In this document: positions 1 to 14,655 of the stretch, in pieces
Layout: the number at the start of each line of letters is the position of its first letter
Numbering within the stretch: the stretch's first letter is position 1
From: Pararhodobacter oceanensis
Lineage (GTDB): Bacteria > Pseudomonadota > Alphaproteobacteria > Rhodobacterales > Rhodobacteraceae
NCBI RefSeq assembly: GCF_003076755.1
Contig: NZ_QDKM01000001.1
Span: 868,001-932,000, forward strand
DNA length: 64,000 nucleotides
Reading direction: 5' to 3'
Program-made: the position numbers and the translations under genes
The notes under the pieces: model-generated
The model's input: the letters and a program-made list of their open reading frames with translations, nothing else
Told to the model about the DNA's origin: nothing
Databases searched by the model: none

Positions 1-649
1 TCATCTCGCCGGTGCCCGGTTCGCACCGGCCGGGATTATCCGCGACCTGCACCTCGCCAATCCACGGCAGACAGGCTTTGGCCCAACGGATCACATCCCC
101 CTCGCCGATCTGCGTGTGATAAAGATCAAGGTTGATCCGCAACTGCGGGCGGTCAACCGCGGACACCAGCGACAGCACATCAGCCGTGCTGTTGAACGGG
201 CAGCCGGGATGTTCGCGCAGATTGAGGTTTTCGAGGGTGAAAATGACCCCCTCTTCCTCGGCCAGATCGCAAATCCGGTGCAGCGTATCCCGCGCCCGCA
301 GCCACATGCCCGGCGCCACATGCGCGATCTGCGGCACAGGGATACCGTGATCGCCAAGTCCGGTGCCATGCAGGTTCAACCGCTGCACCCCCAGCCGTTT
401 GCCGACCTGAACCGTCTCGCGCGCCGAGGCGAGCAGCAGCTCGGCCCCCGCCTCATCGGCAAGACGCCCCTCAAGATAGCCGTTCATGATGGTGAAACTG
501 GCGCCGGTGGCGGCCAGCGCGTCCAGATCCCACGTAGGCCAGTTCCACAGACCGACGCCAAAACCCATCTCGTGCAGCGCCGCCGCCCGCCAATGGATGG
601 GCCGGTCCTGCCAAAGCATTTCGGCACAGGCCGAGAGTTGAAAGCCCAT
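1..649 (-). CDS. hyi: Hydroxypyruvate isomerase-like TIM-barrel protein (3' end cut by window edge)
   Basis: The minus-strand frame reads without a stop from an ATG at 649 to the window edge, giving 216 residues of an unfinished protein. It starts MGFQLSACAEMLW and contains FTLENLNLREHPG, INLDLYHTQIGEGD and GEVQVADNPGRCEPGTGEM. These match the conserved core of the hydroxypyruvate isomerase (Hyi/OtnI) branch of xylose-isomerase-like TIM barrels, with one catalytic Glu visible in LEN; the second would lie past the edge. The family interconverts hydroxypyruvate with tartronate semialdehyde or isomerises related keto-sugar acids in the cytosol. It starts 2 nt after the Rieske gene and is the last visible gene of the operon, so it probably acts late in the same carbohydrate pathway. 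The family is clear; the exact substrate is inferred. Confidence 0.85.
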   Translation of the reverse strand, partial: MGFQLSACAEMLWQDRPIHWRAAALHEMGFGVGLWNWPTWDLDALAATGASFTIMNGYLEGRLADEAGAELLLASARETVQVGKRLGVQRLNLHGTGLGDHGIPVPQIAHVAPGMWLRARDTLHRICDLAEEEGVIFTLENLNLREHPGCPFNSTADVLSLVSAVDRPQLRINLDLYHTQIGEGDVIRWAKACLPWIGEVQVADNPGRCEPGTGEM

Positions 650-651
650 GG

Positions 652-963
652 TCAGATCTCCACGAAAACCCGGCCATTTTCGACCTTGGTTGGATATGTG
701 TGCAGGTTTTCACAGGCAGGCGGTGTCTCGACCTCACCATTGGTGCAGTCAAAGATCGAGGAATGCTTCGGGCATTCGATCGTTGCTTCGACCACCAGAC
801 CGTCGCTCAGATGCACGTCTTCATGGGTGCATAACCCGTCGGTGCAGTAATAGTTGTCTTCATGATCGCGCACGATGATGAAGGTCCGCGCGCCGTGGTC
901 GAAACGGATCACGTCTTCTTCGTCGATATCGGTGGTTGCGCAGGCGTCTACCCAATTGGCCAT
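652..963 (-). CDS. Rieske [2Fe-2S] ferredoxin, MocE-like
   Basis: This 103-residue protein is the size of a free-standing Rieske ferredoxin. The two cluster-binding loops are visible: C45-T-H47 in GLCTHEDVHLSDG and C64-P-K-H67 in IECPKHSSIFD. It has no signal peptide or membrane segment, so it should be a cytosolic electron carrier. Small Rieske ferredoxins of this kind pass electrons from a flavin reductase to an oxygenase; MocE of rhizopine catabolism is a relative. The oxygenase partner could be the di-iron membrane hydroxylase that opens the same operon (9337-10365). No ferredoxin reductase is seen in the window; it may lie beyond the left edge. The gene starts 10 nt downstream of the TIM-barrel gene. 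The fold is certain; the partner is inference. Confidence 0.92.
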   Translation of the reverse strand: MANWVDACATTDIDEEDVIRFDHGARTFIIVRDHEDNYYCTDGLCTHEDVHLSDGLVVEATIECPKHSSIFDCTNGEVETPPACENLHTYPTKVENGRVFVEI

Positions 964-973
964 TCTTGCCTCC

Positions 974-1933
974 TCAAATGTCTTGTGGCTTGTAATCAGC
1001 GGCGGCGGAGGGCATCACGCCCTGCAGAAGCGACACGGATTTCTCCAATCCTTCCAGCGAGTTGAGCAGAACGTCCTCATGCTCGATACTCAGCCATCCG
1101 TCATAGCCGCTCATCTTGAGGCGATAGCAGAACTGCCGCCACCATTCCTCGCCATGGCCGAACCCAAGGGTGATATAGGACCAACTGCGCGCCGGAATAT
1201 CCATCAGACTGCCGGTCTCGAGTAGGCTGGTCACCGCCTGCACGGGGGCATTCAACATCGTGTCCTTGGCGTGGACATGATAGATCGCCTCGCCCAGGGC
1301 TTCGGCGGCCAGCAGCGGATCGGCACCCATCCAGAACAGATGGCTGGGGTCAAGATTCGCCCCGATCACCGGCCCGACCGCCGCGCGCAGTTTCAGCAGC
1401 GACGGCACGTTGTAAACGCATTGATTGCCATGCAGCTCCAGCGCGATTTTCTCGACACCATGCGCTTTGGCAAAGGCGGCAATCTCGGTCCAGAAGGGGA
1501 TCAGTTTCTCGTGCCATTGATAGCGCAGGATCTCCTGCGTCTCCGGCGGCCAGCTGGAAACCACCCAGTTGGGCATCGTATCCTGTGCTGATCCGGCGGG
1601 CAGACCGGACATGCTGCAGACCGTTTTGATCCCCATCTCACCGGCCAGACGAATGGTTTTCTTCAGATCCTCGCCCTGTTTCAGGTCGGTCGGATGCAGC
1701 GGATTGCCATTGGCATTGAGACTGATGATCTCAAGCCCGCGGTCGGTGAATGCCTGCTGAAACGCCGCCTGCGCCGCCGGATTGCCCAGCAGATCGTCGA
1801 TTTTGCAATGCGGCGCGGTCGACCAGCCGCAGGTGTTGACCTCGACCCCCGAAACACCCATGCGGGCGGCGTGATCCAGCATTTCGGTGAATGACATCGC
1901 GCCAAGACTGTCGCTTACGAATCCAAGTTTCAT
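974..1933 (-). CDS. Sugar phosphate isomerase/epimerase-like TIM barrel (IolE/MocC type)
   Basis: This 319-residue cytosolic protein belongs to the AP-endonuclease-2/xylose-isomerase-like TIM-barrel family. Visible landmarks are SLNANGNPLHP near residue 75, LELHGNQCVYN (a metal-ligand Glu and a His), GANLDPSHLFWMG, YHVHAKDT and WLSIEHEDVLL near the C terminus. Together these supply the usual Glu-Asp-His-Glu metal site. Relatives include inosose dehydratase IolE and MocC of rhizopine catabolism. Its ATG overlaps the stop of the upstream Gfo/Idh dehydrogenase by 4 nt (ATGA), so the two are probably translationally coupled. A sensible reading is that the dehydrogenase makes a keto-sugar or inosose that this enzyme isomerises or dehydrates. 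The substrate cannot be fixed from sequence. Confidence 0.9.
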   Translation of the reverse strand: MKLGFVSDSLGAMSFTEMLDHAARMGVSGVEVNTCGWSTAPHCKIDDLLGNPAAQAAFQQAFTDRGLEIISLNANGNPLHPTDLKQGEDLKKTIRLAGEMGIKTVCSMSGLPAGSAQDTMPNWVVSSWPPETQEILRYQWHEKLIPFWTEIAAFAKAHGVEKIALELHGNQCVYNVPSLLKLRAAVGPVIGANLDPSHLFWMGADPLLAAEALGEAIYHVHAKDTMLNAPVQAVTSLLETGSLMDIPARSWSYITLGFGHGEEWWRQFCYRLKMSGYDGWLSIEHEDVLLNSLEGLEKSVSLLQGVMPSAAADYKPQDI

Positions 1934-2934
1934 CGGTAGAACTCCGGCATTGCAATCAGCTCGATCGGCTGTTTCATTCCTGTTTCAAGTGCTTTGACGC
2001 CGGCCTCGGCGGTGACCGCAGCGCAATATCCATCCCAGCAATCCGAGCCGGTTTCGGGGAAGGCGCCGGTCTCAACGAAAGTCAGAAACGCGCGGTTCTG
2101 GCGCACATAGGCCTCGTGATAGCGGCCCCGCCAATCCGCGTCATAGCGGGTGGCCGAGGCGAGCTTTATGTCGGTGCGGGTATAGGCGACATTGTTCATC
2201 GCAATCGCCCCCTGCTCGCCGACCAGCTCGGCGCGCAGGTCATAGCCATAGGCGGCGTTGTTATTGATCTCGATGGTGACCAGCTGGCCATCGGTGGTGT
2301 CCAAAACCATCACCACCGGCGCAACGCGCGCATCCGAACGCCTTGGCTGATGCACCGTGATCGACGCATATTCCGTGCCCAGCACATGGCGCACGACGTC
2401 AAACTCATGCGGCGCCGAGTTGGTAATCGCCATCGCACCGGTGAAATCCGACGCCGGCGTTTCCACGTTGCGGTGGAAATTATGCATCATCAACGCGCGA
2501 CCCAGCGTGCCATCGGTCAAGGCGCTGCGCATTTCCATATAAGAGCGGTCAAACCGGCGCATAAAGCCCAGCATGATGTGGCGCGCGCCCGCGGCCTGCT
2601 CGGCCTGCATGACCTCAAAGCACTCGGATGAGGCTTGCGACAGGGGCTTTTCGCACAGCGCCGGCTTGCGCGCGGCGATCGCGGCCTTGGACAGGGGCGC
2701 ATGGGTGAAATCCGGCGAGGCGATAATCACCGCATCCACATCGGCGCGCGCGATCACCGACTCGGGGTCGCTGGCAACATCGGCCGCCCCATGTGCATCA
2801 GCCACCGATTTCGCGCGCTCTGGGTCCAGATCGCAGACCAGTTGCAGACGGGCGCCGGGCATGTCTTCGGCGACGATCTTGGCGTGATCTGCGCCCATGA
2901 GGCCCGCACCAATGACGGCAATTCTTATAGTCAC
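1930..2934 (-). CDS. Gfo/Idh/MocA family NAD(P)-dependent dehydrogenase (inositol dehydrogenase-like)
   Basis: The 334-residue protein has the family's two domains. An N-terminal Rossmann fold carries GAGLMG at 9-14 and the CEKPLS loop with catalytic Lys96. A C-terminal alpha/beta domain carries PHEFDVVRH, whose Asp179 and His183 sit where inositol dehydrogenase IolG keeps its catalytic Asp and His. Such enzymes oxidise one hydroxyl of a cyclitol or sugar to a ketone in the cytosol. Lying between a sugar ABC importer and an IolE/MocC-like TIM barrel, it is the likely first catabolic enzyme after uptake. MocA of rhizopine catabolism and IolG are plausible functional analogues; substrate choice is inference. 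A terminator-like hairpin (2946-2973) separates it from the transporter genes, which may lower its expression relative to them. Confidence 0.92.
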   Translation of the reverse strand: MTIRIAVIGAGLMGADHAKIVAEDMPGARLQLVCDLDPERAKSVADAHGAADVASDPESVIARADVDAVIIASPDFTHAPLSKAAIAARKPALCEKPLSQASSECFEVMQAEQAAGARHIMLGFMRRFDRSYMEMRSALTDGTLGRALMMHNFHRNVETPASDFTGAMAITNSAPHEFDVVRHVLGTEYASITVHQPRRSDARVAPVVMVLDTTDGQLVTIEINNNAAYGYDLRAELVGEQGAIAMNNVAYTRTDIKLASATRYDADWRGRYHEAYVRQNRAFLTFVETGAFPETGSDCWDGYCAAVTAEAGVKALETGMKQPIELIAMPEFYR

Positions 2935-2945
2935 GGCAGTCTCCG

Positions 2946-2973
2946 AAAAGGCGGACCGGCTTGAAGCCGTCCG
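2946..2973 (-). terminator. Intercistronic hairpin with U tract (attenuator)
   Basis: On the minus strand CGGAC-GGCT pairs with AGCC-G-GTCCG, one base bulged, followed by CCTTTTC. It lies between the ATPase stop and the Gfo/Idh dehydrogenase start. It looks like a leaky intrinsic terminator dividing the transport and enzyme halves of the operon. Confidence 0.5.
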
Positions 2974-3020
2974 TTACCAAGGGGGTTGCAAGGGGGGGCG
3001 AGCAGTTGCCCGACCCAAGA

Positions 3021-3845
3021 TTAGTGTGCAGGTTCAGGTGGTTGCCCGTCATGGGCCTCCATATAGCCTTCGATATTGGCCTCCAGATCGGCCATCGACT
3101 CGCCACCGGCCATCAGGTCGGCGATTTCCTCGCGGCTCTTCTCGCCAGCGCGGAAATCAGCGGCAATGGCGCCGCGGATCAGAACCGCAAAGTGATCGCC
3201 GACGGCCATTGCATGCATCACCTGATGGGTGATGAAAATCACCGCCAGCCCGCGCCGCTTGGCTTCATTCACGATGCGCAACACATGGGCGGCCTGTTTG
3301 ACACCCAGCGCCGCCGTCGGCTCGTCAAGGATCAGGACCCGGGCGCCGAAATGCACCGCGCGGGCGATGGCAAGGGACTGGCGCTCGCCCCCCGACAGGC
3401 CGCCAACAAGCCGGTCCCCATCGGTGATCCGCGTGATGCCAAAGTTCTGCACCGCCTCCACCGCAATCGCATTGGCCTTTTCGCGGTCATAGATCTTGAA
3501 CGGGCCGTAGCCTTTGGTCGGCTCTTGACCCACAAAGAAATTGCGCCCCACCGACATCAGCGGATAGGTGCCGCCGAATTGATGCACCGTGGCAATACCG
3601 GCATTCTGGGCATCGCTTGGTCGGGTGAAATTGACCGGCTTTCCGTCCATATACATCTCGCCGCGGGTCGGCTGGAACACCCCCGAAAGCGTCTTGATCA
3701 GGGTGGATTTCCCCGCGCCATTATCGCCCAGAAGACAGAGAACCTCGCCCTCTTTCACCTTCAGGCTGATGCTATGCAAAACATCGATGGGGCCAAAGCT
3801 CTTGTCGACTTTGCGCATTTCTAGAACAGCTGTATTGTCTGACAT
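3021..3845 (-). CDS. Sugar ABC transporter, single-domain ATP-binding protein
   Basis: This 274-residue cytosolic ATPase has Walker [10 protein letters not shown] (40-48), Q-loop Gln89, signature LSGGE (150-154), Walker B LILDEP (171-176) and switch His207. It belongs to the CUT2/ribose-type group but contains only one nucleotide-binding domain, like FrcA, whereas RbsA/MglA fuse two. It should therefore work as a homodimer under a pair of permeases. It is the only ATPase in an operon with three permeases and two binding proteins, so it probably energises more than one membrane complex. Start is the ATG 9 nt after the upstream permease stop. CUT2 importers carry pentoses, hexoses or cyclitols; which one is carried here is not visible. 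Confidence 0.94.
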
Positions 3846-3854
3846 GATGTGCCT

Positions 3855-4937
3855 TCACTTTTTCTTTGTGGTCGCCGCAGAGGTCGCCAGGTTTCGCAGG
3901 GTGTCATTCATCAGCACTGCAACCAGCAGCAAGGAGCCGATGAAGAGCATGTTCAGGTCTTTGTCGAAGGCGGTGAAGTTGATCCCCTGAAACACGATCC
4001 CGAAGGTCAATGTTCCGAAAACCACGCCGAGGACGGTGCCAAAGCCCCCGGTGAGCAGCACGCCACCGACAACCACGCAGATGATGGTGTTGAAAATCAT
4101 CCCGAATTGCGTGGTGGTGCTGGCCGTATTCGCCAAGACCGCCTCGGTCATGCCGACCAGCGCCGCCGCCATTGCCGACAGGATAAACAGCGCGATCTTC
4201 AGTTTTGCGGTCGGGATACCGGCATTTCGCGCGCTCTCCTGATCGCCGCCCATCGCGAAAATCCAGTTCCCCCAATGCGACACATGCAAGACATAGAAAC
4301 CGGCAATCGCCACGGCGATCCAGATGAAGAACGAGCTTTGCAAACTGCGGAAAACGGTGATCGCAGTCTCGCCCTCGCCGAGGATCAGCGAGTGGTAGTC
4401 ACCGAAGATGAACTCAGAAACCACCCCGGCATCTTGCAGGCTGTGCTGCGTCGTGCCGGCAACCTGTTTGCTGACATAGGCGTTGAGCCCGGCGACGACA
4501 AAAAGCGTCGCCAGCGTCACGATAAACGAGGGCACTTGCGTGCGGGTCACAAGCATACCGTTCACCCAACCGATAGCGGCGGCGAAGCCGAAGCTGATGG
4601 CGACGCCAAGCCAGATATTGAGCCCGAAGGTTTCAACCGACATCGCCAGCACGATGCCACCGGCGGGGATCAGCGCCCCGACCGAGATATCCAGCTCTCC
4701 GGCAATCATCAAAAACCCGATCGGGATGGCGATAATGCCGACTTTCGAGGCGAAATTCAGCCAGGTCGATGCCCCCAGCGCCGTCATAAAGTTCCTGTCG
4801 AGGCCGAAATAGCCAAAGAAAACAAGAATGAGGACAAAGGCCGCCGCCGCTCCTGCTTCTGGCCGTCGCAAGGGTCCAAGAAAGGAAATACTTCGTTTCT
4901 CTTTTGTCGAACTAATGTCGACCGGTGCATCAACCAT
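3855..4937 (-). CDS. Sugar ABC transporter permease (third permease of the operon)
   Basis: This inner-membrane permease of the branched-chain/ribose type (BPD_transp_2) has about 360 residues. Hydrophobic segments run throughout, and it carries the hallmark loops IAGELDISVGALIPAGG and GGDQESARNAGIPTAKL, the second being the ATPase-contact region. I start it at the ATG at 4937 (MVDAPVD), which has AAGGAAG 10 nt upstream, rather than the in-frame TTG at 4955. It is paralogous to the permeases at 6049-7092 and 7104-8123. It sits directly before the ATPase and after the second binding protein, so binding protein 2, this permease and the ATPase could form one complete importer. Confidence 0.93.
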   Translation of the reverse strand: MVDAPVDISSTKEKRSISFLGPLRRPEAGAAAAFVLILVFFGYFGLDRNFMTALGASTWLNFASKVGIIAIPIGFLMIAGELDISVGALIPAGGIVLAMSVETFGLNIWLGVAISFGFAAAIGWVNGMLVTRTQVPSFIVTLATLFVVAGLNAYVSKQVAGTTQHSLQDAGVVSEFIFGDYHSLILGEGETAITVFRSLQSSFFIWIAVAIAGFYVLHVSHWGNWIFAMGGDQESARNAGIPTAKLKIALFILSAMAAALVGMTEAVLANTASTTTQFGMIFNTIICVVVGGVLLTGGFGTVLGVVFGTLTFGIVFQGINFTAFDKDLNMLFIGSLLLVAVLMNDTLRNLATSAATTKKK

Positions 4938-5005
4938 GATCCTATCTTCCTTCAAATGAGCTTGGGTTGCCCGCTTTGCCTATCGATGTGGGGTTCGTTG
5001 CAGCG

Positions 5006-5037
5006 CCGGTTGCGGCCAATGATCAGGCCGCAACCGG
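5006..5037 (-). other. Perfect 12-bp inverted repeat after the second binding-protein gene
   Basis: CCGGTTGCGGCC at 5006-5017 pairs perfectly with GGCCGCAACCGG at 5026-5037 around an 8-nt loop, a few bases after the binding-protein stop. No U tract follows. It is most simply an RNA-stabilising hairpin protecting the 3' end of the abundant binding-protein message. Confidence 0.7.
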
Positions 5038-5044
5038 GGCTGGT

Positions 5045-5998
5045 TTAGCGCGCGCCGAGCGCGGCACCGGCACGAACCGCCTCGACATTCGCGGCATCAA
5101 TGATCACCGGACCGGTCAAAACCGGATCCGTCGCGATCTCGGTGCCGAACCGCAGATGCGCAAACAGCATCGAGGTCGCAAGAAACCCCTGCAAATAGGG
5201 CTGTTGGTCGATGGCCATGGTTTGCGTGCCAGCGGCGATGCGATCCAGCGACGCGGGGCTGATGTCAAAGGCCCCGATCATCAGGTCAACGCCGGTTTGC
5301 TCAACGGCATTCGCCGCTGCCGCCGCGCCAAACTCGGCGCAAGAAATCAGCGCGTCGATAGAGCTGTCGCCGATCAACTCGGCCTTGATGACCTCGGCAG
5401 TGCCGGTCACATCGCCGTCAAGATTGGCCGGGGTGTTAAGGATCGTCACCCGCGCGCCGACCTCGGTCGCCCCGTCGGTGACACCGCGGCAACGCTCTTC
5501 TAGGTTGATCGCGCCCGGGATCTGGATGTGGCAGACAATATGCGTCGCGCCCTGTTCGGCCATATACCGACCGCCGCCATAGCCCGAGTGGTATTCGTCC
5601 GAGCCAAAGTAATTCACCGCGCCGATCTCGGCCTGCACCGGCAGACCGGCGTTATATTGCATGATGACAATCCCCTCGTCGCGGGCCACCTGCAGCGCCG
5701 GGATCTGTGCTTCGGGCACCCAGACCGGGATCGCAATCCCGTCAACGCCCTGAGCAATCGCCTGATTGATCAGCGTGACCAGATCGGGGCCGAAGTTCTC
5801 GTAATTCTGGGTGCGCAGATATTGGACCGTGCCGCCATTGGCCTCGACCATATGGGTCGCGTCATCCACGCCCCTTTTGATCTTATCCATGAATGCGTCT
5901 TCGATCGACCCTGCGATCACTGCGATATCCTGCGCATAGGCACCACTCGCCATAAGCGCTGCCACCGCCGCCGCCGCGATGTGTTTAGTGACGTTCAT
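5045..5998 (-). CDS. Sugar ABC transporter periplasmic substrate-binding protein 2
   Basis: About 317 residues with a Sec signal peptide (MNVTKHIAAAAVAALMASGAYAQ) and a periplasmic sugar-binding fold (Peripla_BP_4, ribose/LacI type). I use the ATG at 5998 because GGGAGGATATCAAG precedes it; a longer open frame to 6103 would bury the signal peptide. Motifs include YENFGPDLVTLINQAIAQG, PVWVPEAQ and AIDQQPYLQGFLAT, the last being a conserved hinge/ligand segment of this family. It is clearly paralogous to the binding protein at 8274-9251 (same NYxNxGPD and WVPEA motifs). Two receptors in one operon suggest two related ligands or two affinity ranges. A strong hairpin follows its stop. Confidence 0.94.
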   Translation of the reverse strand: MNVTKHIAAAAVAALMASGAYAQDIAVIAGSIEDAFMDKIKRGVDDATHMVEANGGTVQYLRTQNYENFGPDLVTLINQAIAQGVDGIAIPVWVPEAQIPALQVARDEGIVIMQYNAGLPVQAEIGAVNYFGSDEYHSGYGGGRYMAEQGATHIVCHIQIPGAINLEERCRGVTDGATEVGARVTILNTPANLDGDVTGTAEVIKAELIGDSSIDALISCAEFGAAAAANAVEQTGVDLMIGAFDISPASLDRIAAGTQTMAIDQQPYLQGFLATSMLFAHLRFGTEIATDPVLTGPVIIDAANVEAVRAGAALGAR

Positions 5999-6048
5999 CT
6001 TGATATCCTCCCTGATTGACCTGCCGGATGTGACGGGCCCACTCCTCG

Positions 6049-7092
6049 TTACGTCTTTGGCTCTTTGGCCGCCGCCTGAGGCGAATTGTCTTTGGATTTC
6101 CATGGTCTTCCGGCGGCTGAACTCAGCGCCAGCTTTTTGAAATTCTCATTCATCGCCACCGCCAGCAGCAGCATCACGCCGATGATCAGATTGGACCAAT
6201 TGCGATCAATCGCGGTGAAATCGATGCCCTTATTGACGATCGCAAAGGTCAGGGTGCCGACAAAAACACCGGGAACCGATCCGAAACCACCGGTCAAAAT
6301 CACGCCGCCCACAACGACGCTGACGATGATGTTGAAAATATCGTTCATCCCGCCCGAGACCTGCGCCGAGTTGAACAATATCGCGTGGCACATGCCGACG
6401 AATGAGGCAGAGGTGGCGGTCAGGATGAACAGCAAGATGGTCATGCGATCCACCGGCACACCCGCATTGCGCGCACTTTCCTTGTCTCCGCCCATGGCGA
6501 AGATCCAGTTTCCGTATTTGCTGTAATGAAGGACGAACCAGAACACGGCGGCGAATATGATCCACCAGATGATCACCACTTGATGGCTGCCGCCGAAAAT
6601 GAACTGGCCAAACATGAACTTGGCCCACTCCGGCGCCGCCAAGGGGACAGAGGCGCTGCCGGTCAACAGCTTGGAACCCGCCAGCACCACACCCTGCATC
6701 GCGACCAGCGTGGCCAGTGTGATGATCAGGGTCGGCACATTCGTGCGCACCGCCAGAATGCCATTGATCGCGCCAATAACCACGCCCAGCGCCAAGGCCC
6801 CGAGGATGCCAAAGACCATCGGAAGCTCGTAATAGCCGGTGATGATGGCGGTCGACATTGCCCCCGCCGGGATCATCGCACCGATGGAAATGTCGATCTC
6901 GCCCGAGATCATCAACAGCCCGACAGGGATGGCGACAATGCCGATCCGCGCCGCATAATTGACCCAGCTGGCCGCCCCGATCAATTGCCCGAAGTCCACG
7001 CCGCCGATGACCACATAGAAAGCCAGAACGCCGATCAGGCTTAACACGGATGCGGATGCGGGCCGCCGAAGCAGTATTGAGACTATTTTCAT
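6049..7092 (-). CDS. Sugar ABC transporter permease (second permease of the operon)
   Basis: About 347 residues, multi-spanning, of the ribose-type permease family. Conserved stretches are ISGEIDISIGAMIPAGA and MGGDKESARNAGVPVDRM. The chosen ATG at 7092 (MKIVSILLRRPAS) has GAAGG upstream and follows the previous permease by 11 nt; the open frame extends upstream as low-complexity Arg-rich sequence that is out of character. It probably pairs with the permease at 7104-8123 as a heterodimer because the two genes are adjacent and tightly spaced. The C-terminal tail (KSKDNSPQAAAKEPKT) is charged and cytosolic. Confidence 0.92.
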   Translation of the reverse strand: MKIVSILLRRPASASVLSLIGVLAFYVVIGGVDFGQLIGAASWVNYAARIGIVAIPVGLLMISGEIDISIGAMIPAGAMSTAIITGYYELPMVFGILGALALGVVIGAINGILAVRTNVPTLIITLATLVAMQGVVLAGSKLLTGSASVPLAAPEWAKFMFGQFIFGGSHQVVIIWWIIFAAVFWFVLHYSKYGNWIFAMGGDKESARNAGVPVDRMTILLFILTATSASFVGMCHAILFNSAQVSGGMNDIFNIIVSVVVGGVILTGGFGSVPGVFVGTLTFAIVNKGIDFTAIDRNWSNLIIGVMLLLAVAMNENFKKLALSSAAGRPWKSKDNSPQAAAKEPKT

Positions 7093-7103
7093 TCCCGTCA
7101 CCT

Positions 7104-8123
7104 TCACGATTTCTTCGCCGCGACACGCATCGCGAGTGCACGGAAGCTGTCGTTGGACAGAACGGCGGCCAGCAGCAGCGCGCCAACAATGATCGAGCCG
7201 ACATTGGGATCGAGCGCGGCGAAAAAGACGCCTTGGTTCACCACCGCAAAGGTCATCGTGCCCAGCAGAATACCGATGATCGACCCGGCGCCGCCGTTCA
7301 GCAAAACGCCCCCGATGACGGCGCACATGATCGAATTGAAGATAAAGGCCTGCCCGCCCGCGACCTGCGCCTGCTGATAGGTCATCACCTGCGCCACGCC
7401 GACAAAAGCCGCACAAAAGCCCGACGCCATAAACAGGCCGATGGTTACTTTCGCGGTCGGGATCCCCGCATTGCGCGCGCTTTCACGGTCGCCGCCAATG
7501 GCCAGAATCCAGTTCCCGACCGGCGAGATATGCAGGATGTAAAAGAACACGGCAGCAAAGCCGATCCACCACAGGATGGCGACATTGAACATACCGTTGA
7601 TAAACTGCCCCAGCAGCGCCTTGGTGGTCGGATCAGGCACATAGGACACGCTGGTCGATCCCTTGATCAACACCGCAGTGCCCAGCGTCAGCCCCATGAC
7701 CGCGAACATGACGCCGATGGTGACGATCAGTGACGGAATACTGGTGCGGGTGACCAGCAGGCCGTTCACAAACCCGATTGCCAGCCCGACACCCAGCCCC
7801 CCAGCGATGCCGATAAAGGCGGGCAAATCATAATGGCCGGACAACATCGCCGCGGTCATGGATGAGGCTGGCACCACCGAGCCGACCGAGAAGTCGAACT
7901 CGCCCGAGATCATCAACAGCCCCACCGGCAAGGCAATAATGCCCACCTCCGCCGCGATATTGAGCCAACTGGACCAGCCCGGAGCGCCGATGAATACCGG
8001 GCCGCCAAGGCTGGCGAAAAAGGCAAAGACGACCACAAAGCCAATCAACGATCCCGTTTCGGGCCGTCTGGCAAACGTAGCAAGCGCCGAGTGTTTTCCC
8101 GAAGTCCGATGAGACGTTGGCAT
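7104..8123 (-). CDS. Sugar ABC transporter permease (first permease of the operon)
   Basis: Inner-membrane permease of about 339 residues. Signature segments are ISGEFDFSVGSVVPASS, IGGDRESARNAGIPTAKVT and GGVLLNGGAGSIIG. I prefer the ATG at 8123 (MPTSHRT) because AAGGA lies 8-9 nt upstream; the ATG at 8132 (MDQMPTSH) is possible but has no well-spaced ribosome-binding site. It follows binding protein 1 after 150 nt that hold a bulged hairpin (8145-8169). Together with the next permease and the shared ATPase it would form the channel served by binding protein 1. Confidence 0.91.
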   Translation of the reverse strand: MPTSHRTSGKHSALATFARRPETGSLIGFVVVFAFFASLGGPVFIGAPGWSSWLNIAAEVGIIALPVGLLMISGEFDFSVGSVVPASSMTAAMLSGHYDLPAFIGIAGGLGVGLAIGFVNGLLVTRTSIPSLIVTIGVMFAVMGLTLGTAVLIKGSTSVSYVPDPTTKALLGQFINGMFNVAILWWIGFAAVFFYILHISPVGNWILAIGGDRESARNAGIPTAKVTIGLFMASGFCAAFVGVAQVMTYQQAQVAGGQAFIFNSIMCAVIGGVLLNGGAGSIIGILLGTMTFAVVNQGVFFAALDPNVGSIIVGALLLAAVLSNDSFRALAMRVAAKKS

Positions 8124-8144
8124 CTGATCCATCCTTTTTGGTCC

Positions 8145-8169
8145 GCCTTGCAGGACATCGTCCCAAGGC
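8145..8169 (-). other. Bulged hairpin between binding protein 1 and permease 1
   Basis: GCCTTG and CAAGGC flank GGAC/GTCC, giving a 10-bp stem with a 2-nt bulge and a 3-nt loop, ending about 20 nt before the permease start. It fits a processing or stability element, or a brake on permease translation. Confidence 0.45.
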
Positions 8170-8273
8170 AACCGAGCACATCGATTGAAGGTTGATTTGC
8201 GGGGCGGTGATCGGGGTGTCCCTGCGCTCGTGACCGACCGGTCTGTCCGGCCACAATCGCAGTGAGCCCCCCC

Positions 8274-9251
8274 TTAGCGCGCGCCGGCCTCGACGCCCGC
8301 GATCACCAGTTCCACGTTGTTTTCATCAATGATACCCGGCCCGGTCAGGATCTCGCGGGTGGCGATTGTCGTGCCATACTGGACATAGTTGATCAGGATG
8401 GAGGTGGCGAAATAGCCCTGTTGATAGCCCTGCTGATCAATCGCACAGGCCTGTGTGCCCGCCTGAATATTGGCCAGAATCGAGTCGTTAAAGTTCATCC
8501 CGCAAACCTCGACCGCGCCCATTCTGCCTGCCTGCTGGACGCCACTGATCGCAGCATTGGTATCTTGGTCACCGATGGCGAACAGCGCGTCGATGTCGGG
8601 ATTTTGCAAGAGATGTGCGCGCACCGCTTGGGCCATGGCGGTGGAATCGCCAAAGGCGGTGGCGGGCAATTGCAAAACCGATCCGCTTCCGCCGGACTCG
8701 ATCATCCCGTCCTGAAAGCCGCTGCAGAAGGCCTCGATATTCGCCGCCCCGGGCAGGGAATTCAGACAGGCGCCGTTGCTTTGCCCGTCATTGGCAAGAT
8801 ATTCGCCCGCCGCATAGCCGGATCTATAGTCAACCGTGCCGACATAGTTCAACGCCCCGAGACGGTCGGCAGCCTCGATACCGCCGGCATTAAAGATCAC
8901 CAGCGGGATGCCCGCGGCAACCACCGCTTCAAAGGCCGGATCCATCGCCTCGGGCACCCAGTTCGGGGCGACAATCGCATCGGCACCCTGATCAATGGCC
9001 TGACGGATCAACTCCGCCGCATCGGGGCCAAGGTTGTCGTAATTCTGCGGGCCAAGCCAGGTCACCGAGCCACCGTGCATTTCTGCCACCAGACCGGCAT
9101 GCTCGGCGCCCAGCTTGACGCGGGACCAGAACGGATCGTCGGGCTTGTCGCCGATGACAAAGATATCCGGGCCATCGTGCTCGTCTGCCACCGCGAATGA
9201 TGCGGTCAGGGCCAGTGCTGTGGTCGTCGCAAGGATTTTAATCAGTTTCAT
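8274..9251 (-). CDS. Sugar ABC transporter periplasmic substrate-binding protein 1
   Basis: A 325-residue exported protein with signal peptide MKLIKILATTTALALTASFAVA and a Peripla_BP_4 sugar-binding domain. The ATG at 9251 is preceded by GGGAGGAGACCCA, a very strong ribosome-binding site, as expected for an abundant receptor. Motifs such as QNYDNLGPDAAELIRQAIDQG, WVPEAMD, FNAGGIEAADRLG and CAIDQQGYQQGYFAT mirror those of binding protein 2, so the pair arose by duplication. Three cysteines (ACLNSLPG, EAFCSGFQ, VEVCGMNF) could form a disulfide in the periplasm. The ligand is probably a cyclitol or aldose, judged only from the downstream enzymes. Confidence 0.94.
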   Translation of the reverse strand: MKLIKILATTTALALTASFAVADEHDGPDIFVIGDKPDDPFWSRVKLGAEHAGLVAEMHGGSVTWLGPQNYDNLGPDAAELIRQAIDQGADAIVAPNWVPEAMDPAFEAVVAAGIPLVIFNAGGIEAADRLGALNYVGTVDYRSGYAAGEYLANDGQSNGACLNSLPGAANIEAFCSGFQDGMIESGGSGSVLQLPATAFGDSTAMAQAVRAHLLQNPDIDALFAIGDQDTNAAISGVQQAGRMGAVEVCGMNFNDSILANIQAGTQACAIDQQGYQQGYFATSILINYVQYGTTIATREILTGPGIIDENNVELVIAGVEAGAR

Positions 9252-9336
9252 TGGGTCTCCTCCCTCGAGTGCTTGGTATCTGGCGACATACTCGCCGCTG
9301 CTATTGGAAATACCTCCTCCGCATTTCCGTGGCAGG

Positions 9337-10365
9337 TTATTCAGCCGGTGTCGTTCGCGCCTGCCTCGCTTTGAGTTTTTCCTTTTTAGCCCTGAACCGC
9401 GCCTTCATTTGCTCCTCTGCCTCTTTCGAGCCATCGTGCCAGTAGCCAAACCATTTATCGAGCGGCACAATTCCATCAGCGCCGTAATTCACTTCAAAAT
9501 ACTTGTGGTGCAAATAATGCGCATAGGCATGGGTATCGAGCGGTGTATCCTCGGTCACTTCCAGCTTGTCAAAACCGATATGCCCGTTCAGCGCGCCAAA
9601 TCCGACGGCATGGCTGTTGAACATCATAACAATCGGATTGGACGGGATAATAAAATGCCAGACGATCTCGCCAAAATAGAGCAGATGCTCGACCGGATGC
9701 ATGGACAGCGATGACCAGGGGCTCGGATTGATCGAATTATGATGCACCGAATGGATCCACTTATAGAGCACCGGCACATGGATCAGGCGGTGAATACAAA
9801 AGAAATGAACCTCATGGATCGCAGGCACCAGAAGCGTCAGCGCAACCAGCCACAGCCAGTTATCCTGCCAGTCGAGCCAGCCAAACACGTGATAGCCATT
9901 GGCAAAGCACCACAGCATAACCACCTCGACCGCCGTCCAGATCGGAATTCCGACAAAGAAACTGCGCATGAAATTGTCAAGGTTCTGGCTTTTGAACCAG
10001 AAAACATCAGACGGGTTTTCAGCCGGGAATTTGCCGTTGAACTTGAACCTGTTCTCTTGTTTGCGCTTGACGTAGAAAAACATCTCGATGGCACCGTAAA
10101 GCACGAAGATGCCAATTGCGTTTGCCGCAAAGAGATAGAGCGCCCAGCCCCAGCCAAAGGTTTTCATCGTCTCGATGTCGGGCAGCACAAACGCCCAATA
10201 CAGCAGCGCCGTCGCCATATGGAACGCATTCCACGGCCAGATCATATCTTTGATAAAATGACCGATCCGGCTCCATTTTCCGATCCAGAACGGCGCAATT
10301 TCCAGTGTCGCGTTGGGCGTCCAATTGCCGCGCTTATCACGTGTGCCAAATTTTAGGTCATCCAT
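9337..10365 (-). CDS. Membrane di-iron fatty acid hydroxylase/sterol desaturase-family oxygenase
   Basis: This 342-residue integral membrane protein starts at the ATG at 10365 behind GGGGGGAGCGATTC. It has several hydrophobic spans (about 45-95 and 135-195) and the three histidine clusters of the family: H192-RLI-H196 (inside HEVHFFCIHRLIH), H205-SV-HH209, and H283-YL-HH287. These bind two irons and use O2 to hydroxylate or desaturate a substrate. The C terminus is charged and cytosolic. As first gene of a sugar-uptake operon that also encodes a Rieske ferredoxin, it is a good candidate for an O2-dependent hydroxylase or demethylase of the imported compound, much as MocD is in rhizopine catabolism. 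Fold and iron ligands are seen; the substrate is inferred. An exact FnrL-type box lies 68 bp upstream. Confidence 0.9.
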   Translation of the reverse strand: MDDLKFGTRDKRGNWTPNATLEIAPFWIGKWSRIGHFIKDMIWPWNAFHMATALLYWAFVLPDIETMKTFGWGWALYLFAANAIGIFVLYGAIEMFFYVKRKQENRFKFNGKFPAENPSDVFWFKSQNLDNFMRSFFVGIPIWTAVEVVMLWCFANGYHVFGWLDWQDNWLWLVALTLLVPAIHEVHFFCIHRLIHVPVLYKWIHSVHHNSINPSPWSSLSMHPVEHLLYFGEIVWHFIIPSNPIVMMFNSHAVGFGALNGHIGFDKLEVTEDTPLDTHAYAHYLHHKYFEVNYGADGIVPLDKWFGYWHDGSKEAEEQMKARFRAKKEKLKARQARTTPAE

Positions 10366-10432
10366 GAATCGCTCCCCCCTCACTGCGATACGGTGTTCTG
10401 CTCAGAACTTTGGTGATGCTTTTACTGGCAGT

Positions 10433-10446
10433 TTGATATAGATCAA
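10433..10446. promoter_or_regulatory. FNR/FnrL-type box TTGATATAGATCAA
   Basis: The sequence matches TTGAT-N4-ATCAA exactly. It lies in the 157-bp divergent region, 68 bp from the hydroxylase start and 77 bp from the lacI-type start. FnrL is the oxygen-responsive regulator of Rhodobacteraceae. The site suggests oxygen control of a unit whose first enzyme consumes oxygen. Binding is inferred. Confidence 0.6.
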
Positions 10447-10467
10447 ATCAAGGGTACATTTGTGATG

Positions 10468-10497
10468 CTTGATATTTCGTCTCATAAAGTATCATGC
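10468..10497. promoter_or_regulatory. Imperfect inverted repeat, candidate LacI-family operator
   Basis: GCTTGATATTT on the left faces AAAGTATCATGC on the right (the reverse complement reads GCATGATACTTT), about 10 of 11 positions matching with one inserted base. It is 26 bp upstream of the regulator's ATG and next to the FnrL-type box, where an autoregulatory operator would sit. TGATGCTT also occurs twice in the region (10414 and 10463). Confidence 0.4.
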
Positions 10498-10522
10498 AGG
10501 ACAATTTTTGAGGTGAAATGAG

Positions 10523-11563
10523 ATGACCCAGACTGTAAAACGCCCAACAATCCCCGATCTGGCCAAATCCGCAGGCGTATCCGTGTCCACTGTGAACCGG
10601 GTGCTCAATCAACCGGAATCGGTCCGCCAGCTTACCCGTGAGCGCGTCATGGCCGCGGCCGAAGAGATCGGTTTTTACGGTCTGGGCACGATCGAACAGG
10701 CCGTTCGCACTGGCCGCAAGACCCATCGGTTGGGAATATTGCTGCAGCAAAAAGGCCGCGCCTTCTATCGCAAGCTGGGCAACGCGATAGAAGCCGAGGC
10801 CAGATCCCGCAGCGGCGATAGCGTGGCGCTCACTTTGGAGTATCTCGACGATCTGTCGCCCGACCGGGTTGCCGCGCGGCTTGTCGCTCTGGCCGAGACC
10901 TGCGAGTCCGTGGCCCTTGTTGCCGCGCAACACCCGCTGGTCGCCGATGCCATTGATACCGTCACCGCCAAGGGCGTGCATGTGACCAGCCTGATCGCCC
11001 CGCTCTCTGCCAGCGGCACGGTCAATTTTGTCGGTCTGGACAATTGGAAGGTCGGCCGCACCGCCGCTTGGGCCTTTGGCAAGATGGTGCATGAGCCCGG
11101 AAAGATCGGCATATTGCTGGGCAATCACCGCTACCGGAACCAAGAGCTGAACGAGAGCGGCTTTCGCTCTTATTTCCGCGAGCATAACCCGCAGTTCACC
11201 CTGCTCGAGCCCATCGCCACTTACGAATCCGCCGCCGCCGCCCGCGAGCTGGTTGAAGCCATGCTGAAGGACCACGCCGATCTCTGCGGCCTGTTCATCT
11301 CGGGCGGCGGTATCACCGGCGCTTTGGCAGCCCTGCGCGAGGCACCAAGGCGCGGGGACTTTGTCACCGTCGGTTACGAGCTGTTCCCCGAAACCCGCGC
11401 CGCGCTGATCGACGGCACGCTCTCGATGGTGATTTCGCACCCGATGGAAGTCTTTGCGCGCGAGACAATCAACACGCTGATCAAGGCCAAACAGGCCGAT
11501 ATCGACGCCGGCGCGCAATATGTGGCTCTGGGCTTCGATATCTACACCCCCGAGAACGTGTAA
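10523..11563 (+). CDS. LacI family transcriptional regulator
   Basis: The 346-residue protein starts with a LacI headpiece: TIPDLAKSAGVSVSTVNRVL (about residues 9-28) is the helix-turn-helix, followed by the hinge region RERVMAAAEEIGFYGLG. The rest is a periplasmic-binding-protein-like sensor domain with FVGLDNWKVGRTAAW and a C-terminal IDGTLSMVISHPMEVFARE segment. Its sensor fold is the same type as the operon's two binding proteins, so it probably senses the transported sugar or a derivative. It is transcribed divergently from the long sugar operon and shares its control region. Repression relieved by ligand is the family's usual mode. GAGGTGAAATGAG lies before the ATG. Confidence 0.93.
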   Translation: MTQTVKRPTIPDLAKSAGVSVSTVNRVLNQPESVRQLTRERVMAAAEEIGFYGLGTIEQAVRTGRKTHRLGILLQQKGRAFYRKLGNAIEAEARSRSGDSVALTLEYLDDLSPDRVAARLVALAETCESVALVAAQHPLVADAIDTVTAKGVHVTSLIAPLSASGTVNFVGLDNWKVGRTAAWAFGKMVHEPGKIGILLGNHRYRNQELNESGFRSYFREHNPQFTLLEPIATYESAAAARELVEAMLKDHADLCGLFISGGGITGALAALREAPRRGDFVTVGYELFPETRAALIDGTLSMVISHPMEVFARETINTLIKAKQADIDAGAQYVALGFDIYTPENV

Positions 11564-11673: not shown

Positions 11674-11762
11674 GCCGATCAGGGGAAAGGTGATACTCTT
11701 GCCGCAGGCAGTTGGGCGATCCTGCCCATCGCTCACCGGGTCAGGAGGCTCGAAAGGTCAGG

Positions 11763-12986
11763 ATGCTCATGCGACGTTTTCTCATGGCGATGGCGACGCC
11801 TCTTGCGCTAATCCCCCTCGCCGCCCCTGCGCAGGATTTGCCCCGCGACGAGGGGCGCGATCTTGTCGAGATGTATTGCACCGCCTGCCACAGCACGCGG
11901 CTGATCCATCGGTCGCTGGGCTATACCGCGGCGGATTGGACGGCGCTGGTCTCGACCATGGTCTATCTCGACGGGCAGCCCGACCTCGCGGTCATCACGG
12001 AATATCTGGCCCGGCATTTCCCCCCCAATGACACCCGCGCGCCGGTGCAGATCAACGGGCCACTTACCCTCAGTATCGAGAGCTGGTCCGGCCCGACCCG
12101 TGGCCAAAGGGCGCGGGATCCGGTCGAGGCGCCGGACGGCGCGATCTGGTGGACCGGACAATGGGCCGACCTGCTGACACGGCTGGACCCCGAGAGCGGC
12201 GAGATGCGCGAATACGACCTGCCCGCCGGAGCCCGCGCCCATACGGTGACCGCGGCGGATGACGGGATGATCTGGTATACCGGCAATGGCAACGCCACCA
12301 TGGGCCGGCTTGATCCGGCATCCGGCGAGATCACCGAATACCCGATGCCCGACCCCGCCGCGACCGATCCGCATTCGGCCATCGTCGGTGCCGACGGGCG
12401 GGTCTATTTCACCGTGCAGCGCGGCAATATGGTCGGTCGGCTGGACCCCGCGACCTCTGCGGTCGATCTGGTCACCATGCCGGTGCCGCGCTCGCGCCCC
12501 TATGGGATCAGACAGGCGCAGGATGGCACGATCTGGGTCGCGGCGAACGGCTCGAACCGTCTCTATCGTATCGACCCCGAGAGCCTCGCGGTCACCGATC
12601 ACGAAATCCCGCATGCCGAGAGCCATATCCGCAGGCTCGATATCGCGCCCGATGGCACGATCTGGTATGTCAACTCGGGCCGCGGGCGCATCGGGCAGTT
12701 TGATCCGGCAAGCGGCGCGCTGCGCGAATGGCCCAGCCCCAGCGGGCCTGCATCGCATCCCTATGCGCTGGTCTGGTTCGACAATGCGGTCTGGTATAAC
12801 GAATCCGGTATGCGCCCCGATATGCTGGTCCGGTTTGACCCCGAGACCGAGAGCTTCCAGAGCTGGCCGATCCCCTCCGGTAGCATTCACGCCGGCATCC
12901 TCAGACATATGCGCGTGACCCGCGACGGCTCTGCCCTCTTGATCCACCAAAGCGCGACCAACACGGTGATGCGCCTGCGCCCCTGA
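11763..12986 (+). CDS. Exported cytochrome c domain fused to a streptogramin-lyase-like beta-propeller
   Basis: About 407 residues. A signal peptide (MLMRRFLMAMATPLALIPLAAPAQ) is followed by one haem c motif, C39-T-A-C-H43, in a short cytochrome-like segment to about residue 90. The remainder is a propeller of repeated blades, each marked by DG-x-IW: PDGAIWWTGQ, DDGMIWYTGN, ADGRVYFTVQ, QDGTIWVAAN, PDGTIWYVNS and FDNAVWYNES, with RLDP or RIDP between blades. This is the virginiamycin B lyase (Vgb)-like fold, but in the periplasm and tied to haem. That points to a redox or sensory role rather than antibiotic cleavage. The ATG at 11769 is an alternative start with a better-spaced AGGA. No neighbour explains its job. 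Confidence 0.82.
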   Translation: MLMRRFLMAMATPLALIPLAAPAQDLPRDEGRDLVEMYCTACHSTRLIHRSLGYTAADWTALVSTMVYLDGQPDLAVITEYLARHFPPNDTRAPVQINGPLTLSIESWSGPTRGQRARDPVEAPDGAIWWTGQWADLLTRLDPESGEMREYDLPAGARAHTVTAADDGMIWYTGNGNATMGRLDPASGEITEYPMPDPAATDPHSAIVGADGRVYFTVQRGNMVGRLDPATSAVDLVTMPVPRSRPYGIRQAQDGTIWVAANGSNRLYRIDPESLAVTDHEIPHAESHIRRLDIAPDGTIWYVNSGRGRIGQFDPASGALREWPSPSGPASHPYALVWFDNAVWYNESGMRPDMLVRFDPETESFQSWPIPSGSIHAGILRHMRVTRDGSALLIHQSATNTVMRLRP

Positions 12987-13923: not shown

Positions 13924-14655
13924 CTAAAGCCGGTAACTCGGCAGCAGCTGGAAAGCGTCGCGCAGGGCGTTTCCCCAGCCCTTGGTGATTGCCTGATACA
14001 CCGCGTCGTCCGCGTTGATCCGTTTTGTACGGTCGCAGGAGAAGGAATCGTTCTCATAAACCTGAAGATCGAAAGGCAAGCCAACGGACAGGTTCGATTT
14101 CACCGTCGAGTCAAACGAGACAAGCAGCAGCTTTATCGCATCCGCAAAATCCATCTGGCTGTCATAAGCCCGCACAAGGATCGGCTTGCCGTATTTGGTT
14201 TCCCCGATCTGGAAAAACGGCGTGTCGTCGGTGATCTCGATGAAATTTCCCTCGGGGTAGATCATAAAGATCGTGGGTTTGCCGCCCTTGATCTGCCCGC
14301 CCAGGATAATTGATGCGCCGAACTGATCATCCGAAGTTTGCCCCGTCGGTGACGAGCCGGAAATCACTTCGCGCAATGTCGCACCAACCAGCCGCGCGAC
14401 CTGAAACATGGTGGGCTGGCGCAGGATGCTGGGATCCCGATCTTCTTCGGTAACGGATCGTTCCTGCAGCAGGCTAATAAGCGATTGTGTTGTCGCAAGG
14501 TTGCCTGCAGTCATCAATGTGATGGATCTCTCATCCGGCACCTGCCAGCTGAACATCTTCTTGCTGACCGCGAAGTTATCAACCCCCGCGCTGGTGCGTG
14601 TGTCCGACATAAACACCAACCCGTGTTCCAGCCGCATTCCGATGCAATAGGTCAC
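13924..14655 (-). CDS. Anbu proteasome-like protease
   Basis: The 243-residue protein begins MTYCIGMRLEHGLVFMSDTR. It thus has no propeptide and places Thr2 as the N-terminal nucleophile after Met removal, as in Anbu (ancestral beta-subunit), an Ntn-hydrolase related to HslV and the 20S proteasome. The following LMTAGNLATTQS and later GETKYGKPILVRAYDS segments fit the family. It is encoded 34 nt after a transglutaminase gene, itself linked to alpha-E and ATP-grasp genes, the standard Anbu neighbourhood. Anbu assembles into open-ring or helical particles in the cytosol. Its physiological substrate is unknown in general. Confidence 0.93.
   Translation of the reverse strand: MTYCIGMRLEHGLVFMSDTRTSAGVDNFAVSKKMFSWQVPDERSITLMTAGNLATTQSLISLLQERSVTEEDRDPSILRQPTMFQVARLVGATLREVISGSSPTGQTSDDQFGASIILGGQIKGGKPTIFMIYPEGNFIEITDDTPFFQIGETKYGKPILVRAYDSQMDFADAIKLLLVSFDSTVKSNLSVGLPFDLQVYENDSFSCDRTKRINADDAVYQAITKGWGNALRDAFQLLPSYRL

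Follow-up and report, generated by a model that had tools for sequence, protein, structure and literature searches.

Why should a membrane di-iron hydroxylase be encoded together with sugar receptors, a rhizopine-type Rieske ferredoxin and genes for inositol breakdown, and what would such an operon degrade? The question is raised by a locus of Pararhodobacter oceanensis, lying in a stretch of 64,000 nucleotides (bases 868001-932000 of contig C1, NZ_QDKM01000001.1, in a genome of 4.08 Mb) which is here called the window. A single-strand unit of 19 genes starts at window position 10383 and runs along the minus strand for about 20 kb, extending past the window's left edge. The operon is probably devoted to the catabolism of inositols that bear O-methyl groups, or of closely related cyclitols (compounds like pinitol or ononitol), in which a hydroxylase of family PF04116 would carry out oxidative O-demethylation and the one-carbon unit would pass to folate; the identity of the substrate is one that we infer from gene context. 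Oxidative demethylation or hydroxylation, possibly through a variant of the rhizopine (moc) route, had been suggested in an earlier note on this DNA, and demethylation is now better supported because PurU, a PanB-like protein and the iol set share the operon, as does FolD in a few relatives. A ring product entering the inositol pathway and a one-carbon unit entering folate metabolism match the needs of methyl-inositol O-demethylation.

Gene content of the operon

All the genes named in the earlier note are present on the minus strand between positions 1 and 10383, and the operon proved to be larger than had been claimed. Its genes, listed from the hydroxylase onwards, are given with window coordinates first and contig coordinates for the part beyond the left edge.

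9337..10383, minus strand: membrane di-iron hydroxylase (FA_hydroxylase/sterol-desaturase family), proposed O-demethylating monooxygenase; PF04116, 58.6 bits against a gathering score of 31
8274..9251, minus strand: periplasmic receptor 1 (SBP1), rhizopine/inositol type, Peripla_BP_4; PF13407; best NCBIfam family rhzpin_SBP NF052284, 146.4 bits, below the cut-off of 420; nearest solved chain 4ru1
7104..8171, minus strand: ATP-binding cassette (ABC) permease A; PF02653 (BPD_transp_2)
6049..7092, minus strand: ABC permease B; named from its open frame, its position and tblastn matches in relatives, no Pfam run
5045..5998, minus strand: periplasmic receptor 2 (SBP2), Peripla_BP_4; PF13407; rhzpin_SBP 128.1 bits, below the cut-off of 420; nearest solved chain 4ru1
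3855..4955, minus strand: ABC permease C; named from its open frame and tblastn matches in relatives, no Pfam run
3021..3845, minus strand: sugar ABC ATPase with a single nucleotide-binding domain; PF00005
1930..2934, minus strand: MocA/IolG-like inositol dehydrogenase (Gfo/Idh/MocA); NF052679, 265 bits, below the cut-off of 540
974..1933, minus strand: MocC/IolE-like TIM barrel (AP_endonuc_2); PF01261; IolE family TIGR04379, 33 bits, below the cut-off of 290
652..963, minus strand: MocE-family Rieske ferredoxin; TIGR02377, 151 bits against a cut-off of 136.15
1..649, minus strand, cut by the edge (whole gene C1:867876-868649): Hyi/epimerase-like TIM barrel; PF01261; nearest solved chains an AP endonuclease family 2 protein and ketose 3-epimerases
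C1:866685-867872 (L002:11685-12872), same strand: MocF-like FAD ferredoxin reductase; Pyr_redox_2 and Reductase_C
C1:865848-866666, same strand: PanB-like protein; PF02548, 115.7 bits against 28.7
C1:864783-865778, same strand: IolG, 419.6 bits against a cut-off of 355
C1:863845-864759, same strand: PurU (formyl-tetrahydrofolate deformylase); TIGR00655, 333.1 bits against 285.95
C1:862299-863909, same strand: fused IolC, 620.3 bits against a cut-off of 600
C1:860092-861969, same strand: IolD, 891.6 bits against a cut-off of 715
C1:859187-860092, same strand: IolE, 369.8 bits against a cut-off of 290
C1:858372-859220, same strand: IolB, named by reading its sequence, no family scan

Intergenic gaps within the window part range from -4 to 102 nucleotides. 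The eight further genes beyond the left edge, ending at IolB, are separated by gaps of -65 to 69 nucleotides with the exception of 329 nucleotides before iolD, and iolD-E-B may therefore have a promoter of their own; past IolB, the next likely genes sit on the opposite strand. Start codons are those of mechanically called open frames, except for permease B and receptor 2.

MocE is the genome's only TIGR02377 match above the cut-off. The MocF-like reductase, which the earlier note had placed hypothetically past the left edge, was found just beyond it and carries the same domain pair as a Phyllobacterium mocF homologue, scoring below the NCBIfam cut-offs of named dioxygenase reductases. The two receptors are not clearly of a plain-sugar type, in agreement with the earlier expectation, as the best NCBIfam family of both is that of the rhizopine receptor, although their scores lie far below its equivalog cut-off; 4ru1, their nearest solved chain, is presumably a myo-inositol complex. 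The best matches of the ATPase are to sugar ABC ATPases with two domains, of which they cover the N-terminal half. The MocA-like dehydrogenase is nearest to the solved chain 3ec7 and then to 3mz0, an inositol 2-/D-chiro-inositol 3-dehydrogenase. The barrel at 974-1933, by its AP_endonuc_2 family, is a candidate counterpart of MocC.

The hydroxylase carries HxxxH, HxxHH and HxxHH boxes, which we take to be the box pattern of the FA_hydroxylase superfamily. Their residues (H198xxxH202, H211xxH214H215 and H289xxH292H293), together with H229 and H285, do not vary in any of the 41 rows aligned, comprising the window protein and 40 of 59 usable rows; 16 more ran into a stop and were left out. Its AlphaFold model has a mean pLDDT (predicted local distance difference test) of 86.3.

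Conservation across relatives

At E 1e-120 the hydroxylase is present in 13 of 149 genomes of the family, and at E 1e-20 a homologue is found in 27 of 385 genomes of the class, most of these scoring below 375 bits (the window's own genome is counted in both). The hydroxylase search provided 75 loci, and partners were counted in the 57 that have at least 9.9 kb downstream, as best-hit tblastn matches above 55 bits anywhere in the stored stretch and on either strand; such counts may miss distant partners, and those of the ATPase, permease and receptor may be inflated by unrelated transporters. Matches to the importer and regulator are the most frequent (receptor 54, ATPase 53, LacI 52, permease 51), and the other partners comprise MocE in 46 loci, the Hyi-like protein in 42, the PanB-like protein in 40, IolG in 30, the MocA-like protein in 25, the IolE-like protein in 23 and MocD in 9. 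Since the partners recur at hydroxylase loci, the gene association of the operon is not due to chance. The gene set, which the earlier note had suggested looking for in other Rhodobacteraceae, is found again across many Rhodobacterales, in some Rhizobiales and on one contig of the Comamonadaceae. Tropicimonas marinistellae and Rhizobium rhizophilum are culturable relatives that carry the locus. FolD was detected at loci L052 (Rhizobium) and L064 (Comamonadaceae), and also in a Neotabrizicola cassette described below.

Another possibility is that the operon acts on a hexose carrying a methyl or other ether group, the iol genes being mere neighbours or handling a derived cyclitol. The Hyi-like barrel does resemble ketose epimerases, the importer is a sugar-type ABC system, and oxygenases demethylating methoxy-sugars are described (PMC10033563); yet IolG, IolC, IolD and IolE all score above their family cut-offs in the same operon, the MocA-like protein is nearest to inositol and D-chiro-inositol dehydrogenases, and IolG recurs in 30 of the 57 long loci, which makes a hexose an unlikely substrate.

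Two oxygenase families in one type of cassette

The rhizopine genes of rhizobia are named and grouped as mocDEF, mocR, mocBA and mocC (PMC10107442). With these the present operon shares a MocE-family ferredoxin, an FAD reductase, a MocA-like dehydrogenase, a MocB-like receptor and a MocC/IolE-like barrel, and moc-type regions also carry PanB-like and PurU genes after the reductase. It differs in its oxygenase, which belongs to PF04116, as against PF00487 in 3 of 3 MocD homologues scanned, as the earlier note had anticipated in assigning it to another family; in its LacI regulator, as opposed to MocR (GntR/aminotransferase-type); in having an ABC importer, a second receptor and iol genes within one operon; and in receptors that fall below the rhizopine equivalog. 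The system is a variant of the moc kind and not a moc operon proper, because the oxygenase family, the regulator and the receptor equivalog all fail to correspond. It is improbable that the operon serves rhizopine (3-O-methyl-scyllo-inosamine) itself and has merely exchanged its oxygenase: MocE above its cut-off, the rhizopine receptor as best family of both receptors and a MocE-reductase-PanB-like-PurU set common to moc-type rhizobial regions speak for it, whereas a LacI regulator heads the operon, no MocR-type gene or frame was seen in it, the receptors reach 146 and 128 bits against 420, and no aminotransferase was seen among the 19 genes, of which two permeases and IolB were not family-scanned.

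The same cassette type accommodates either oxygenase. MocE matches 488 plasmid records, and in six of six regions read around such matches a gene annotated as 3-methyl-2-oxobutanoate hydroxymethyltransferase lies beside or near MocE, with the FAD reductase in four and PurU in three. A MocD homologue is present in four of these regions, the fourth being unannotated and found by tblastn as two pieces, and a PF04116 enzyme in the other two. Two moc-type rhizobial regions, one of them that with the unannotated MocD, have the order MocD-MocE-reductase-PanB-like-PurU. Seven of the 75 loci encode both MocD and the hydroxylase on a single strand, and locus L150 (genome G186, 1.6 Mb, of the same class) has a row of MocD, MocF, MocE, PanB-like gene, second MocD and hydroxylase homologue. 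Since both oxygenase types are found in MocE/PanB-like cassettes and occur together in those seven loci and in the L150 row, MocD and PF04116 oxygenases substitute for each other in cassettes with MocE and a PanB-like gene, and membrane di-iron enzymes from two distinct Pfam families thus occur in one redox and one-carbon setting. The earlier expectation that the hydroxylase would be kept in conserved copies fails in part, as many related cassettes have MocD in its place; this mutual replacement had been missed, and the PanB-like partner lies outside the window. In the window genome, four FA_desaturases lie outside the operon, and the closest to MocD shares 33-34% identity with it.

Two of these loci are also of interest for their composition. 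In G186, two MocD-like oxygenases and one PF04116-type homologue surround a single MocE, reductase and PanB-like gene. The Neotabrizicola plasmid NZ_CP069371 (L276 and L082), typed as mobilizable and read at both ends of its circular record, carries on one strand a cassette of LacI, PanB-like gene, sterol-desaturase protein, receptor, permease, ATPase, MocE, TIM barrel, reductase, a second PanB-like gene, FolD, PurU and IolG.

The PanB-like protein

The PanB-like protein scores 81.7 against the TIGR00222 cut-off of 207.55, which it does not reach, and well above that of the broader PF02548. PanB was searched for in 25 genomes, mostly of isolates, to which 25 named loci among the 75 belong. A canonical PanB is present in 25 of 25 (340-362 bits), and 22 also have diverged copies, amounting to 53 genes of at most 185 bits, all held by 51 stretches that were fetched. 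In these relatives, which keep a separate canonical PanB, the PanB-like gene is thus not just the cell's own PanB; in the window genome, where no other PanB homologue was found, it may be.

Most of the diverged genes have cassette partners nearby: 48 of the 53 have MocE no more than 3 kb away on their own strand, 48 have a di-iron oxygenase (MocD at up to 4 kb or the hydroxylase at up to 8 kb), and 45 have both. Among the eight misses (L167, L169, L170, L174, L190, L181, L201 and L214), L167 is a match with an in-frame stop and the top scorer of the 53, L190 is a contig of 8.3 kb, L214 revealed a hydroxylase on a longer read, and L181 and L201 overlap loci with a hydroxylase match. The 25 canonical PanB stretches used as a control match no query protein other than PanB, hence no MocE; as they are short (mean 3.7 kb), the fair comparison is that of MocE within 1.5 kb, found for 44 of 53 PanB-like genes and 0 of 25 canonical ones.

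A second sample was taken because the first genomes had been chosen for the hydroxylase. The PanB-like profile was searched at E 1e-40 in 398 genomes of the phylum, of which 19 have a match (the own genome counted), all from the window's class, with 24 stretches outside the own genome. MocE and an oxygenase are both present, on any strand, in 16 of the 24, and in 19 after longer reading of three misses, in which L269 and L270 gained a hydroxylase and L272 has MocE and a hydroxylase about 7 kb or more away. The five other misses stand as read over their original stretches; of these, L260 contains MocD and L263 a hydroxylase, in both cases without MocE, the rest being L248, L266 and L267.

The divergence extends to residues of the active site. 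An alignment of 29 selected PanB-like rows (28 of 54 pieces plus the window operon's own) with 25 canonical PanBs shows D88 replaced by G, K118 by Y and E120 by A or S in 29 of 29, with H142 and E186 kept in all. Across the 77 genes of both samples, D88 is kept in none (73 G, 1 C, 3 gaps), K118 in none (76 Y, 1 N) and E120 in none, whereas H142 is kept in 76 and E186 in 77; the D49 column (D in 13 of 77) is poorly aligned, and nothing is therefore drawn from it. We take D88, K118 and E120 to be D84 (metal), K112 and E114 (both substrate) of the E. coli enzyme, E186 to be E181 and D49 to be D45. In the tree, PanB-like (30) and canonical (25) rows split with 100/100 support, the former making up their own clade. 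The predicted model (pLDDT 86.8, residues 128-136 poorly predicted) matches PanB crystal structures with a best E of 9.4e-17. The protein thus shares the fold of PanB and a sequence similarity mainly over the C-terminal two thirds, and differs from it in forming a separate clade, in having lost the aligned metal and keto-acid residues and in sitting in catabolic cassettes.

A related gene has already been described. The second panB of R. etli p42e, RHE_PE00443 (270 aa), is reported to keep 5 of 12 invariant active-site residues, to have no metal-binding domain by CD-search and to leave a panB mutant uncomplemented, with data not shown there, in a 2011 paper (PMC3082293). In the 35 of 505 kb of R. 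etli CFN42 p42e that were read, a LacI gene, a fatty acid desaturase (93% identity to a scanned MocD), MocE and an FAD reductase accompany one PanB-like coding sequence of 271 aa, RHE_RS26335, whose changes at D88, K118 and E120 are the same as those of the window protein. Judged by replicon, product and length, this is apparently RHE_PE00443, the old tag being unprinted in the record. Some annotations of '3-methyl-2-oxobutanoate hydroxymethyltransferase' in alphaproteobacteria are probably wrong.

That the hydroxylase performs C-hydroxylation of a ring or lipid with no demethylation, PurU and the PanB-like gene serving general folate and pantothenate metabolism, would suit a family, PF04116, whose members act mostly on lipids and a genome that has PanC and no other PanB homologue found, but is very unlikely given the PanB-like genes near MocE and a di-iron oxygenase (45 of 53, and 19 of 24 stretches in a sample not chosen for the hydroxylase), the canonical PanB in 25 of 25 relatives tested and an R. 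etli PanB-like gene apparently unable to replace panB (PMC3082293).

Proposed pathway

For the demethylation of an O-methylated inositol, the two MocB-like receptors and the three-permease ABC importer would take up the substrate, and the PF04116 membrane di-iron enzyme would hydroxylate the O-methyl carbon, with NAD(P)H as the electron source and the MocF-like reductase followed by the MocE ferredoxin as carriers. The resulting hemiacetal would yield free inositol and a one-carbon unit at the level of formaldehyde. The MocA-like, IolE-like and Hyi-like proteins may tune stereochemistry or oxidation state, and IolG, IolC, IolD, IolE and IolB would degrade the ring, while the PanB-like protein would put the one-carbon unit on tetrahydrofolate (THF), after which FolD would oxidise it and PurU would free it as formate. 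FolD converts methylene-THF into 10-formyl-THF, from which PurU produces formate. The step without a known enzyme here would be the conversion of formaldehyde into methylene-THF, and the PanB-like protein may fit this gap, because it keeps the PanB fold and has lost residues of the keto-acid end.

We tentatively suggest, as a possibility in some doubt, that the PanB-like protein is a one-carbon capture enzyme, moving a hydroxymethyl group, as formaldehyde or directly from the hydroxymethyl-ether hemiacetal produced by MocD- or PF04116-type oxygenases, onto THF to give 5,10-methylene-THF. If so, MocE-type demethylases would have a regular third partner, an enzyme dedicated to formaldehyde-THF condensation or hydroxymethyl transfer, and the one-carbon unit of the rhizopine pathway already known would be explained as well. 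According to He et al., formaldehyde and THF react spontaneously at a rate that is too low to support growth, and PanB is a possible promiscuous catalyst of the reaction, although an E. coli double deletion of panB and ltaE brought no change (PMC7073904). The open-access literature searched gave no account of the fate of the rhizopine one-carbon unit, to which the cassette suggests an answer; among the matches listed, there was nothing on point on bacterial demethylation of pinitol, ononitol or methyl-inositol and no report of the cassette or of the PanB-like link. Rhizopine catabolism was reportedly modelled by Bahar et al. in 1998 as a ferredoxin oxygenase complex joined to the inositol pathway.

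Several observations weigh against methyl-inositol demethylation as set out here. The MocA-like, IolE-like and Hyi-like proteins and both receptors score below the equivalog cut-offs of the families listed. When its fold was compared with the PDB, the hydroxylase model had no significant match (8 hits at E of 10 or less, the best at 6.0), and a sequence search returned weak potassium channel matches only (best E 0.013), so the hydroxylase call rests on Pfam, the histidine boxes and context. Among the 57 long loci, 11 have no MocE in the stored stretch, and MocF (11), PurU (3) and FolD (2) are scarce. The 10 kb limit truncates the view of many operons, the window's own PurU and iolC-B lying beyond such a distance; being unseen in most stored stretches, PurU, FolD and MocF may be further away or supplied from elsewhere. 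Around less close hydroxylase homologues, 18 of 20 stretches (drawn from part of the 34 class-level matches, several of them cut by contig ends) are without MocE and PanB-like genes, with MocE only in L147 and L150. The notion that any PF04116 homologue brings these partners is accordingly rejected, and the MocE/PanB-like partnership is limited to one hydroxylase subfamily. Finally, in the window genome PanC is present (contig C6), and a canonical PanB was not found in the assembly, rated 99.9% complete, nor beside PanC: either panB is absent from the assembly, or there is another source of ketopantoate, or the PanB-like protein still serves pantothenate.

Related systems

Elements of the proposed chemistry are known elsewhere. 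Alkylglycerol monooxygenase (AGMO, TMEM195), of the PF04116 motif family, cleaves ethers via hydroxylation to a hemiacetal and has essential histidines (PMC3617469). The two share the fatty-acid-hydroxylase motif family and would share the oxidative ether cleavage via a hemiacetal, which is a proposal for the present enzyme; AGMO uses tetrahydrobiopterin and acts on lipid ethers, whereas the present enzyme would use a Rieske ferredoxin and reductase on a probably water-soluble cyclitol. In marine Flavobacteriia, 6-O-methyl-D-galactose is oxidatively demethylated to formaldehyde by a cytochrome P450 system (PMC10033563), which resembles the reaction suggested here as an oxidative demethylation of a methoxy carbohydrate with redox partners, and differs in being a haem P450. 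The purU-mabO-folD operon of plasmid pAO1 handles the one-carbon unit from demethylation of the nicotine side-chain (PMC3891541). There too, a demethylating enzyme is encoded together with FolD and PurU; the enzyme is an amine oxidase acting on an N-methyl group, and the operon, as far as that source describes it, has no PanB-like partner.

Regulatory region and neighbouring genes

The intergenic region upstream of the hydroxylase separates it from a divergent regulator and contains a candidate operator.

10523..11563, plus strand: LacI-family regulator, divergent; PF00356 and PF13407
10432..10447, no strand: candidate LacI-type operator, palindrome TTTGAT-N4-ATCAAA, between regulator and hydroxylase; seen in the sequence

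The operator core TTGAT-N4-ATCAA is present in 4 of 64 homologous intergenic regions (shuffles gave a mean of 0.02), and an operator common to the whole family is rejected because of this low number. A second near-palindrome, GTTCTGCTCAGAAC, lies in the same intergenic region at 10395-10408.

Further along the window, a virginiamycin B lyase family protein (PF24684) is encoded at 11712-12986 on the plus strand, with an N-terminal CxxCH seen by eye, and is perhaps a beta-propeller joined to a cytochrome-like part. On the minus strand, at 13924-14655, there is a proteasome-subunit-like protein (PF00227) in what is apparently a proteobacterium.

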